A stretch of DNA of 64,000 nt, taken from Hydrogenovibrio halophilus DSM 15072 (GTDB taxonomy: Bacteria; Pseudomonadota; Gammaproteobacteria; Thiomicrospirales; Thiomicrospiraceae). The notes beneath the pieces are model-generated. The model saw only the letters and a list, made by a program, of their open reading frames with translations, made no database searches and was not told the origin of the DNA. Positions 12,961-21,407 of the stretch are shown here, one piece after another. The stretch spans positions 1,743,164 to 1,807,163 of the forward strand of contig NZ_KB913033.1 in assembly GCF_000384235.1 (NCBI RefSeq), given 5' to 3'. Every line of letters begins with the position of its first letter. Positions within the stretch are counted from its first letter, which is position 1. A program made the translations under genes and the position numbers.

Positions 12961-14805
12961 TTATAGGTCGGCACGCAGCCCGACAAAAAACTGTCGGCCG
13001 CCCTGGCTGTAAACATATTGGGGCGGAGTGCCGGTGGCGGGATAGTCCGCCACAGCGGTAATGTAATCGGCATTGGTGAGGTTTTCAATGCGCGCGTACA
13101 TTTTCAGTGTCTGGCCGATCTGATATTGGGCGCGCAAATCGGTGACAACGTATTCGCCGATCTGTTTGCCCTGCCGATCCTGTGCCGGGTATTGGGTGCC
13201 GGTGTAATGGCTGTCCAATCCCAGCGACAGAGCGGTGGCAGCTTGGTAATCCAGCGACAGTTGCGCGGTCTGGTCGGGCACATAGGCCGGTGTTTCCCCT
13301 TGCTCGTTGGTCACGTCCTGCCAAGTGGCCGACGCATTCACGCGCAGGTTCCAGTCAGAGAAATGGGTGCCATAGTGCAGTTCGATGCCCCGGGAACGGG
13401 TTTCCTGATCGGCGTTCACATAAACGTTGTTCGGGTAGCTGCCCTGGGATTCGATTTTGTCGCGAATGTCGGCTTTGAACCAGGTCAGAGTCCAGTCTCC
13501 CAGACCGGCGGTGATGTCGATGGAGCGTGATTGTTCCGGTTTGAGTTCTTCCGGGTTATCGGCGCTCAGCTGTGACAGCAGGGGCGCTTTGTAACCGGAG
13601 CCGACATTCATGCTGAGGTAGGTGGTTGGGGCGAATGATTTTTTGACCCCGATTTTGCCGGTCAAGGCGTTTTCAAAACGGTCAAACGCATCAAAACGCA
13701 GGGATTCGGTCACGGCCCAGCCCCGATCAAACTGGTTGTGGTTGGTCAGGCTGACCCCATTTTGAGTGAAGTCCTCGCGCTCCGAAAAGCTGCTGACGCT
13801 GTCATAGGTTTTGCGGTTGGCGCTGACTTGCACAAAATCGACCTGACGATAGGCGCGGGTCAGTGAGAGTTTCTGCTCGGACAAGGTGCCTTCGTATTCG
13901 GTGGTGCCAAACCCGGTGTGAAAGGCCCGCTCAATCCGGTTGTGATGGAGTTGTGCCCGGCCTTGCCAGGGGCCTCGTTGGTATTGGTAGCGAATCGAAC
14001 GGGTCAGTTGGTCGTATTCGTTCCAGTTGTCGGCTTCGGCGTCGCTGCCATCGTCATAGTCGGTGGTCGCGCTGGCGGTTCGAATCCGGGTTTCGATGCG
14101 ATGATGCTCGTTGAGGTTCAGGCCCAACCGGAATCCAATGTCGGTTTGCTGGTGCCCGTCGTCCTCAAAGTCTTCGGCCTCCTGATTGTATGGCCGCACG
14201 GCGGAAAAGCCGTTTGTGTCCAGCGTGAAAAAATCCACGCCGAAATCGACCCGCTCATTGCTACGCCCCAGCCCGGCGTGCAATTGCTTGTGGCCATGAC
14301 TGCCCACTTCCATGCTTGCCTGAGTGGTGTCACTTTTAGAGGTGATGATGTTGATTACGCCTGCGGCGGCATTGGCGCCCCAGACACCGGACTGGGCGCC
14401 TTTCAGGATTTCAATGCGCTCGACGTCGGCCAGCCGCAATCGATGCAGGTTGGCGCCGCTCAGGCCAGACGGGTCGGTCTGTTCCACACCATTGATCAGC
14501 ACCAGCAGGTTGTCCTGAGAAAAACCGCGCACATAGGTGCTGCTTTGCTGGCCAGTGCCACCGGCGGGTTTGACGCTGAAGCCCGGCTGGGCTTTGAGGG
14601 CGTCGTTCAGGGTCTGATATTGCTTTTGTTCGATCTCGCTTCGGGTGATGACCGTGACATTGGCGGTGACGTCATCGGCTTTTTGTGGCTGGTCGGTGGC
14701 GGTGATCACCAGGCTGCCCAGTTCGGTGGGCGCGTTTTCTGCCAACGCGGGCTGGGTGGTGGTCAGTGCAAAAATGGCGGGTGCCAGTTGTGACAGTCGG
14801 TTCAT
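12961..14805 (-). CDS. btuB: TonB-dependent vitamin B12 receptor
   Basis: A 614-residue outer-membrane receptor. Residues 1-23 are a signal peptide (ALTTTQPALA). A plug domain follows with TVITRSEIEQKQYQTLNDAL and the conserved VERIEILKGAQSGVWG, then a beta-barrel to the C-terminus (FFVGLRADL). The ATG at 14805 has AAGGA seven bases upstream; the ATG at 14820 has none. The cobalamin riboswitch upstream supports B12 as substrate over siderophores. First gene of btuB-btuR-btuF. Confidence 0.93.
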   Translation of the reverse strand: MNRLSQLAPAIFALTTTQPALAENAPTELGSLVITATDQPQKADDVTANVTVITRSEIEQKQYQTLNDALKAQPGFSVKPAGGTGQQSSTYVRGFSQDNLLVLINGVEQTDPSGLSGANLHRLRLADVERIEILKGAQSGVWGANAAAGVINIITSKSDTTQASMEVGSHGHKQLHAGLGRSNERVDFGVDFFTLDTNGFSAVRPYNQEAEDFEDDGHQQTDIGFRLGLNLNEHHRIETRIRTASATTDYDDGSDAEADNWNEYDQLTRSIRYQYQRGPWQGRAQLHHNRIERAFHTGFGTTEYEGTLSEQKLSLTRAYRQVDFVQVSANRKTYDSVSSFSEREDFTQNGVSLTNHNQFDRGWAVTESLRFDAFDRFENALTGKIGVKKSFAPTTYLSMNVGSGYKAPLLSQLSADNPEELKPEQSRSIDITAGLGDWTLTWFKADIRDKIESQGSYPNNVYVNADQETRSRGIELHYGTHFSDWNLRVNASATWQDVTNEQGETPAYVPDQTAQLSLDYQAATALSLGLDSHYTGTQYPAQDRQGKQIGEYVVTDLRAQYQIGQTLKMYARIENLTNADYITAVADYPATGTPPQYVYSQGGRQFFVGLRADL

Positions 14806-14813
14806 GCTATGTT

Positions 14814-14837
14814 CCTTCATTTGAATTCAAATGAAGG
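14814..14837 (-). promoter_or_regulatory. 24-bp perfect palindrome over the btuB ribosome site
   Basis: Half-site CCTTCATTTGAA followed by its exact complement. On the btuB mRNA the second half contains the AAGGA ribosome site, so folding would hide it. This is a plausible translational switch under the B12 riboswitch. Confidence 0.65.
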
Positions 14838-14959: not shown

Positions 14960-15001
14960 GGTCAAACCCGGTTTTTGACCAGGCCTGGTTGTTTTCAGGC
15001 C
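14960..15001 (-). promoter_or_regulatory. Alternative stems after the B12 riboswitch
   Basis: Two hairpins flank or use the iterated palindrome: GGTCAAA (14960-14966) with TTTGACC (14974-14980), and GGCCTG (14982-14987) with CAGGCC (14996-15001). The second pairs the palindrome with the 3' strand of the riboswitch closing helix, so the two could compete with that helix. Proposed expression platform, inferred from base pairing. Confidence 0.45.
14978..14989. repeat. Iterated palindrome copy 5 (B12 leader)
   Basis: Exact ACCAGGCCTGGT with TTTTTG flank, about ten bases beyond the cobalamin riboswitch. Confidence 0.9.
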
Positions 15002-15184
15002 GGTATCCGGGCTTAAGAGCGGTTTGCCGACGCCTTCTCAAGTGCCATGTTCGGGCACTCAATGGCTGGGTGTCATACCCTTGTCGACGCTTCTCTATCA
15101 CCGTTGCGGGGGCAGCATGGGGGTTTCACCCATTTCCCGTTTAACCGAATGGCCTCTGAACACAGAAGGCCTCCGGCACCTGAA
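15000..15184 (-). ncRNA. Cobalamin (AdoCbl) riboswitch
   Basis: Read on the minus strand it shows the conserved blocks in order: GGTGCCGGAGGCC, GGGAAATGGGTGAAA, the core CTGCCCCCGCAACGGTGA, a P6-like GAGTGCC / GGCACT stem, and the B12 box AAGCCCGGATACCGGCC. It precedes btuB by about 195 bases. High cobalamin should repress btuB-btuR-btuF, probably by ribosome-site occlusion. Confidence 0.95.
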
Positions 15185-15192
15185 AAAACGCC

Positions 15193-15198
15193 ATTATA
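15193..15198 (-). promoter_or_regulatory. -10 element of the B12 operon
   Basis: TATAAT on the minus strand, placed so that transcription would start at the 5' edge of the riboswitch. No clear -35 at the right spacing. Confidence 0.55.
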
Positions 15199-18069: not shown

Positions 18070-18822
18070 ATGACAGACACCCATGGCTCGCCCCGGATTC
18101 TGATTGTGGAAGATGAGGCCAAAATTGCCGACATTGTTCAGGCGTATCTTGAGAAGGAAGGCTTTGCCACCCATCAGTTGAACCGGGGGGACGAAGTGGA
18201 ACCCTGGCTGGAAGCCCATTCGGCGGATTTGATGATACTGGACCGGATGCTGCCGGGCAAAGATGGCATTGCGGTGTGTCAGGCGGTGCGCACCTTTTCC
18301 CGAATTCCGATTATGATGCTGACGGCCAAGGTCGAAGAGGTGGACCGGGTGCTGGGGCTGGAAACCGGTGCCGACGATTATTTGTGCAAACCGTTCAGCC
18401 CCAAGGAAGTGGTGGCACGGGTCAAGGCCTTGTTGCGTCGTCGTTATGAGTACGACCTGAAAACGCACGTGACCGACTGGGAAATGGACGAGGAACGGTA
18501 TCAGGTTCATTATCAGGGCCAGCACGTGAGTTTGTCGGTGGTGGAATTTGCGATCTTAAAACTTTTGAGCCAGAGCCCCGGCCGGATTTTTTCCCGTGGA
18601 CAGTTGATCAGTTCCATCTACCCGGACAACCGGGTGGTCTCCGACCGGACGGTGGACAGCCACATCAAGAAGCTGCGCCACAAGCTGTTCGATGCTCTGA
18701 CCGAAGACGACATCATTCATTCGGTGTATGGGGTAGGGTACAAGTTTGAATTGCCGGACGCAGCAGCGGCGTCCACCGACTCTCAAAAAACCGACGATCA
18801 GAAAATCACAGAAAAGTCGTAA
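18070..18822 (+). CDS. baeR: OmpR-family response regulator, BaeR-like
   Basis: A 250-residue DNA-binding regulator. The receiver domain has the acidic pair VEDEAK, the phospho-acceptor Asp in LMILDRMLPGKDG and the Lys in DDYLCKPFSPKEV. The winged-helix output domain (about 140-235) includes SDRTVDSHIKKLRHKL and a final SVYGVGYKFEL. It is cotranscribed with the kinase. A promoter for the next, gene-free transcript begins seven bases after its stop. Confidence 0.9.
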   Translation: MTDTHGSPRILIVEDEAKIADIVQAYLEKEGFATHQLNRGDEVEPWLEAHSADLMILDRMLPGKDGIAVCQAVRTFSRIPIMMLTAKVEEVDRVLGLETGADDYLCKPFSPKEVVARVKALLRRRYEYDLKTHVTDWEMDEERYQVHYQGQHVSLSVVEFAILKLLSQSPGRIFSRGQLISSIYPDNRVVSDRTVDSHIKKLRHKLFDALTEDDIIHSVYGVGYKFELPDAAAASTDSQKTDDQKITEKS

Positions 18823-18828
18823 AAGGGC

Positions 18829-18857
18829 TTGCAAAGCCCGATTGGGATCAATACAAT
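18829..18857 (+). promoter_or_regulatory. Sigma-70 type promoter of the non-coding unit
   Basis: TTGCAA (18829-18834), 17-base spacer, TACAAT (18852-18857). It fires into a 430-base interval without a gene. Confidence 0.7.
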
Positions 18858-19118
18858 AAACCTGAATTAGAAAGAAAAAGCTAAATTCGTCGCGAGGCGG
18901 AGGCGGAAAACCACGGATCTCACTGAGATGGCCGGGTTACCTTTCTGGAAAGCATCGTTTACGATTCTCTCCGGTATGTCACTGTTTCCAGTGACACCTC
19001 TCTCCTCGCTACCAGTCGCTTTTTCCGGTTTTACAAGAACACTTTTTTCGATCGTTTAAAACGTCGATTTATGCGCATTTTGCATGGGCATTCAACGGCA
19101 TTTCAATGGGTCGCTGTC

Positions 19119-19138
19119 CGACACCCGATCGGGTGTCG
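19119..19138. repeat. 20-bp perfect palindrome
   Basis: CGACACCCGA followed by its exact complement. It can be a hairpin in the non-coding unit or a dimeric protein-binding site. Confidence 0.7.
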
Positions 19139-19262
19139 CATGGAATAAAAAGTTTTGTTGTAAAACCGAGGGCGGTTTCCGTCCTGTGTTTTACCGTGTT
19201 TCAGAGTGCAACTGAAAGCCCCCCTTCCCTGTCTGACAGGGTTACCACACTTGGGGGAATTT

Positions 19263-19291
19263 GGAGGGCCGTCCGGCCCTCACTTTTTTTT
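19263..19291 (+). terminator. Terminator of the non-coding unit
   Basis: GAGGGCC / GGCCCTC with a four-base loop, then ACTTTTTTTT. It separates the structured interval from the prfC promoter. Confidence 0.9.
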
Positions 19292-19353: not shown

Positions 19354-19359
19354 TATAAT
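19354..19359 (+). promoter_or_regulatory. -10 element of prfC
   Basis: A consensus TATAAT after the terminator and about 195 bases ahead of prfC. The -35 region is T-rich and weak. Confidence 0.5.
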
Positions 19360-21263: not shown

Positions 21264-21407
21264 ATGAAGCTGAAGCGTCGAGACAATATCTTTCGAACCC
21301 AAAAGAAATCGCACGGGAAGTCCTTCTTTTTGCTGTTGATCATAGTGTCTGCCGCCGGATTTTATTTTTTCGGGCAGATCAAATCGGTGTTGGCCGGTTT
21401 TTTATAA
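21264..21407 (+). CDS. Possible 47-residue single-helix membrane protein
   Basis: A short frame starting ATG: a strongly basic N-terminus (KLKRRDNIFRTQKKSHGK) then a clear membrane helix (FFLLLIIVSAAGFYFFG) and a short tail ending LAGFL. The positive-inside layout is that of a real small membrane protein. No good ribosome site is seen, and conservation cannot be judged here. Confidence 0.45.
   Translation: MKLKRRDNIFRTQKKSHGKSFFLLLIIVSAAGFYFFGQIKSVLAGFL

Follow-up and report, generated by a model that had tools for sequence, protein, structure and literature searches.

A predicted noncoding RNA joining a class I c-di-GMP aptamer to a conserved 3' module beside a BaeSR-like gene pair in Hydrogenovibrio halophilus

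The window considered here is a 64,000-nucleotide stretch of the Hydrogenovibrio halophilus DSM 15072 genome, which is 2.36 Mb long and assembled as a single contig. Positions 18829-19291 of the window form a unit that lies between the gene for a BaeR-like response regulator (upstream) and prfC (downstream), and that opens with a sigma-70-type promoter and closes with an intrinsic terminator (Table 1). Judging from the promoter, a transcript is expected to start near 18864-18866, and the RNA predicted on this basis is about 430 nt long, strongly structured and ORF-free. The fold energy of 18864-19291 is -163.2 kcal/mol; 100 dinucleotide-shuffled versions give -124.9 +/- 6.2 kcal/mol and never fold as low (z = -6.2). 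Sense ORFs in the unit do not exceed 43 aa, none of them has a recognised ribosome-binding site ahead of it in this genome, and no ORF between the aptamer described below and the terminator is kept across the seven orthologs of the unit. A hidden small protein was ruled out on the last of these grounds, a loose ribosome-binding match being present for one short ORF only, in G010. The initial annotation had described a gene-free promoter-to-terminator unit dense in RNA structure, and the promoter, the terminator, the fold energy and the want of a conserved ORF bear this out.

Table 1. Features of the unit and of the adjoining regulator gene (window coordinates)
Feature	Position	Strand	Details
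Response regulator ORF	18070-18822		promoter -35 six bases past stop codon
Sigma-70-type promoter	18829-18857	+	TTGCAA-N17-TACAAT; 9/12 consensus matches
Class I c-di-GMP riboswitch aptamer	18871-18945	+	RF03167 59.5 bits (GA 59), E 1.6e-11; RF01051 53.3 bits (GA 35)
Predicted aptamer-off state	18874-19025	+	GAAAAAGC 18874-18881 (including G20) with GCTTTTTC 19018-19025
Off-state helix, arm of aptamer (predicted)	18892-18897/19004-19009	+	GCGAGG with CCTCGC
Linker arm	19026-19168	+	closed by CGGTTTTACAA 19026-19036 / TTGTAAAACCG 19158-19168
Conserved 3' module	19202-19259	+	about 58 nt
Invariant 11-mer	19202-19212	+	CAGAGUGCAAC; all seven genomes
Proposed module pseudoknot	19202-19208/19232-19235, 19248-19250		CAGA 19202-19205 with UCUG 19232-19235; GUG 19206-19208 with CAC 19248-19250
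Module stem M1	19220-19224/19253-19257	+
Module stem M2	19227-19230/19238-19241	+
Module 7-nt loop	19231-19237	+	with UGAC in all seven
Invariant CCACAC	19245-19250	+	3' side of module
Intrinsic terminator	19264-19291	+	GAGGGCCGTCCGGCCCTC then ACTTTTTTTT

The unit had been matched to no known RNA family, which for its 5' part proved mistaken: a cmscan search against Rfam places a class I c-di-GMP aptamer there, with two models of one clan above their cut-offs. The best-scoring model, RF03167, passes its cut-off by 0.5 bit, and the canonical RF01051 lies well above its own. P1 is formed by 18869-18874 paired with 18941-18946, and a GNRA tetraloop is present (GCGA, 18892-18895). In Vc2 numbering, the mapping to which draws on the alignment and on the Vc2 positions, the predicted ligand contacts read from the alignment are G18880 (G20), A18907 (A47) and C18940 (C92). 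The c-di-GMP-I-GGC variant described by RF03167 presumably has G in place of A47, going by the middle letter of its name, and at this position A18907 is aligned with a consensus G. Since this position holds A and not G, the RNA has the canonical set of ligand residues, G20/A47/C92, which predicts c-di-GMP as the ligand; these are the contact residues named for c-di-GMP-I in PMC11218506. By homology, then, the segment 18871-18945 belongs with the class I c-di-GMP aptamers, sharing the GNRA tetraloop and ligand-residue equivalents with the GEMM-I riboswitches of RF01051 and RF03167. Those riboswitches are normally part of a gene's 5' leader, whereas here the unit ends at its terminator with no gene reached, and in no ortholog does a conserved ORF that could be the regulated one lie between aptamer and terminator. 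With no gene between aptamer and terminator, the signal seems to control an RNA and not a neighbouring gene.

RF03167 matches occur in 10 of the 12 genomes of the genus, and the full arrangement of aptamer, linker, module and terminator is found between the response regulator and prfC in seven of them (G000, G002, G003, G005, G006, G009 and G010). A U-tailed terminator hairpin follows the module in all seven. A -35/-10-like pair comparable to that in Table 1 was located by scoring 22-24 nt upstream of aptamer G20 in G000, G003, G005 and G006, and a weaker pair (TTGTGT/TAATAT or TTGTTT/TAGTAT) was read by eye at the same place in G002, G009 and G010. The linker varies from 94 to 252 nt and retains 17-48% identity to that of G000, as against 87-95% for the aptamer and 59-96% for the module, so that both ends are under selection while the middle drifts. 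In G001, G004 and G011 the only aptamer is at another site, in the prfC-mgtE interval, where an ORF for a small membrane protein follows it. The prfC tree is compatible with the seven unit-bearing genomes forming one lineage (77/91 support). A MITE-like element without an obvious ORF, its ends formed by long inverted repeats (GGGCATCTCGATTAACCCC ... GGGGTTAATCGAGGTGCCC), was seen in only two of them (G010 and G002; loci L005 and L006), in the roughly 390 nt that separate the regulator gene from the aptamer and ahead of the promoter region of the RNA.

A model built on the module (R1) found exactly seven copies of it among 56 relatives, all within the genus; in Rfam itself the module has no match, so for this part the earlier statement holds. 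Even at a permissive cut-off, other Rfam families scored only at chance level in the 3' part (atoC 17.5 bits against 50, suhB 15.8 against 41 and tfoR 14.1 against 70). The exact module pattern, a kind of search blind to diverged forms, is present in 7 of 63 genomes of the order, adding no carriers to the seven, in one of 369 genomes of a class sample, namely the source genome and none of the 368 others, and in no viral contig. No second copy was found in the source genome, and no report of this RNA was found among open-licence papers.

Two nested stems and a proposed pseudoknot organise the module (Table 1). When the six distinct module sequences are aligned by hand, 95% of the stem cells are paired, against 49-71% in slid versions, and six pairs have changes on both sides; when the 3' letters were shuffled among the sequences, the both-sides count was matched in 10% of trials and the percentage paired in none. 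With only seven genomes the covariation is thin, and the changes on both sides lend support to the two stems covarying and do not amount to proof. The pseudoknot pairings are nearly invariant and can hardly be tested by covariation, the loop UCUG changing to UUUG in G005 with its pairing to CAGA preserved. On this model the module likely forms a compact pseudoknot.

The linker had to be approached differently, since direct alignment of the full unit is poor in this region, and pairs of lineages were therefore folded separately. The sequence of the linker arm is poorly conserved; its long helix is also found in G005, with compensating changes. In the unliganded fold predicted for each of the seven RNAs, the P1 pair G14-C93 has a probability of 0.00 and the 5' strand of the aptamer is engaged in long-range downstream helices. 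Holding the aptamer in place costs 8.6-18.2 kcal/mol across the seven, in fold energies that leave out both the pseudoknot and the ligand. In five genomes this cost exceeds that of most dinucleotide-shuffled linkers (3, 0, 6, 7 and 2 of 100 shuffles reach it), and in G010 and G002 the excess is not significant (34 and 28 of 100). The best partner of the aptamer 5' strand lies 20-23 nt upstream of the module in five genomes, and in G000 and G005 within the linker, where the pairing includes G20. The closed multi-branch domain at 18892-19019, noted in the initial annotation, is present in the minimum-energy fold, and comparison suggests that it belongs to the other state, the one without a folded aptamer.

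The unit could in principle serve prfC as a long leader in which c-di-GMP sets read-through of the terminator. The next gene is always prfC, on the same strand, and long expression platforms are known in some c-di-GMP-I riboswitches (Bc1, PMC11218506). However, the terminator hairpin is predicted in both folds of every ortholog, no antiterminator for it is predicted in any of them, and a separate prfC -10 (TATAAT at 19354) lies past the terminator and recurs in 7/7 genomes, in line with the separate prfC promoter that the initial annotation had placed there. In G001, G004 and G011, moreover, prfC is retained without the unit, the gene 5' of it encoding SecF as read by eye. The hairpin common to both folds and the conserved -10 of prfC make control of this gene less likely, and we regard it as quite improbable.

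The reading that we prefer, with a probability of roughly 0.6, is that the unit is a standalone c-di-GMP-switched noncoding RNA which acts in trans through its 3' module. As the first domain of the RNA, the aptamer would fold first during transcription and, with c-di-GMP bound, would keep its own 5' strand; without c-di-GMP, downstream linker strands would capture this strand together with the A47-bearing arm, and the aptamer would be lost. The switch would alter how the linker presents the probably pseudoknotted module, which as the effector might act in trans on mRNAs or on a protein. Hfq is encoded in the genome, which we count in favour of a trans-acting RNA. Against it, the search for an mRNA target gave none: the exact complement of the invariant 11-mer occurs at no site common to the seven genomes besides the RNA, the few additional sites being unshared. 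It is a more tentative proposal, at somewhat under even odds, that the module stands for a class of structured effector RNA not described before, with a c-di-GMP aptamer on the same transcript as its gate; c-di-GMP would then have an RNA acting in trans among its outputs, in bacteria where proteins otherwise do most of the sensing.

Among the closest known systems is merRNA of Bdellovibrio bacteriovorus, a 445-nt RNA with a c-di-GMP riboswitch and no conserved ORF (PMC3627812). Like the RNA predicted here, it is a standalone molecule of similar length whose aptamer is followed by no conserved ORF; compared by description, merRNA is known for massive, phase-specific expression and reported as not conserved outside Bdellovibrio, and the present unit differs from it in its conserved 3' module, predicted two-state linker, fixed genomic position and unrelated lineage. 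By this precedent the unit could be a sponge or reservoir, as proposed for merRNA, an abundant RNA that buffers c-di-GMP and whose remainder only stabilises it. The shared layout favours this, as does the fact that the aptamer is the sole RF01051/RF03167 match in the genome and has no gene under its control, but a pure sink needs neither a strongly conserved module nor linkers that unfold the aptamer, and the -35/-10 match is an ordinary one, with nothing that points to massive expression. We consider a sponge unlikely.

Few riboswitches control an RNA that acts in trans. One RNA with distal mRNAs as its targets and one system directed at a protein are named in a 2020 review (PMC7266159), which cites Loh et al. 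2009 for a trans-acting riboswitch. The cobalamin riboswitch sRNAs EutX and Rli55 (PMC7602753) resemble the present unit in having a metabolite aptamer ahead of an sRNA near a two-component system, and their action in trans would be an analogue of the action proposed here. They differ in their ligand, in a riboswitch that works by termination ahead of the effector, and in the ANTAR sites carried by this effector; in the present unit an early terminator was not recognised, and the adjacent regulator, with Response_reg and Trans_reg_C domains, is a DNA-binding protein of the OmpR type. An RNA of the EutX/Rli55 kind, whose module would sequester the adjacent regulator or some RNA-binding protein, would fit the position of a riboswitch-bearing RNA next to a two-component system, and the invariant unpaired CCACAC and the loop could serve as a protein site. 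Against it stand the Trans_reg_C domain of the regulator, which has no ANTAR domain, and the genome's lack of a second module copy to act as titrated target, so that sequestration appears very unlikely.

For the preferred reading, of a trans-acting RNA switched by c-di-GMP, the aptamer is already known, as is the standalone riboswitch RNA in kind (merRNA, EutX/Rli55 and the example of Loh et al. 2009). What is new is the conserved 3' module, the presence of a c-di-GMP aptamer in the same unit, and a linker predicted to have two states. The only precedent that we found for c-di-GMP is merRNA, whose role is a proposal. About 48 GGDEF matches in the genome feed the signal, and the aptamer of the unit is the only class I c-di-GMP riboswitch detected in it. 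Because the seven orthologs combine a sensor that is defined with a switch that is predicted and an effector part that is conserved, a direct c-di-GMP-to-RNA output becomes testable.

The initial annotation had also suggested an sRNA tied to a BaeSR-like envelope response. The sRNA-like, self-contained character of the unit is supported by its conserved position, promoter-like sequence, terminator, structure and lack of a conserved ORF; the tie to the gene pair is only weakly supported. BaeS and BaeR are the best matches of the adjoining kinase and regulator, both of which stay below the curated cut-offs. Within the genus, all seven genomes with the RNA have an ortholog of the regulator (63-100% identical), and no genome without the RNA has one. 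Of the five that lack the RNA, one, 82% complete, gave no hit, and the rest gave nothing closer than distant paralogs at about 40% identity or below. This co-occurrence is weak evidence of function, since the seven may be one lineage and an unrelated palindrome shows the same 7/5 split, and 15 loci around BaeR-like genes of other bacteria gave no Rfam match.

The palindrome in question, the 12-bp ACCAGGCCTGGT, is present in 93-515 copies in exactly the seven RNA-bearing genomes of the genus and absent from the other five. There are 515 exact copies in the source genome, often flanked by TTTTGACCAGGCCTGGTCAAAA, and 16 in the window (for example at 1376, 7075, 14978, 21233, 44574 and 58912), where 23 matches with up to two mismatches compare with 2.8 expected. 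It is perhaps a HIP1-like or uptake-like repeat. The copy at 14978 overlaps the edge of a cobalamin riboswitch (RF00174, 90.3 bits, 14981-15198, minus strand), which lies upstream of a TonB-dependent receptor-like ORF (12961-14820, minus strand).

Downstream of the unit, between prfC and mgtE, an ORF at 21264-21407 (plus strand) encodes a basic, apparently membrane-spanning protein of 47 aa (MKLKRRDNIFRTQKKS...), for which no Pfam or NCBIfam family was matched. Similar small ORFs occupy this position in all ten genomes of the genus that were examined; a c-di-GMP-I riboswitch lies directly 5' of them in G001, G002, G004, G009, G010 and G011, and none was detected there in the source genome, G003, G005 or G006. 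At L012/L021 (G026) and L019/L030 (G009), two c-di-GMP-I aptamers stand in tandem, less than 200 nt apart, and the small ORFs that follow them have about 106 and 131 aa.
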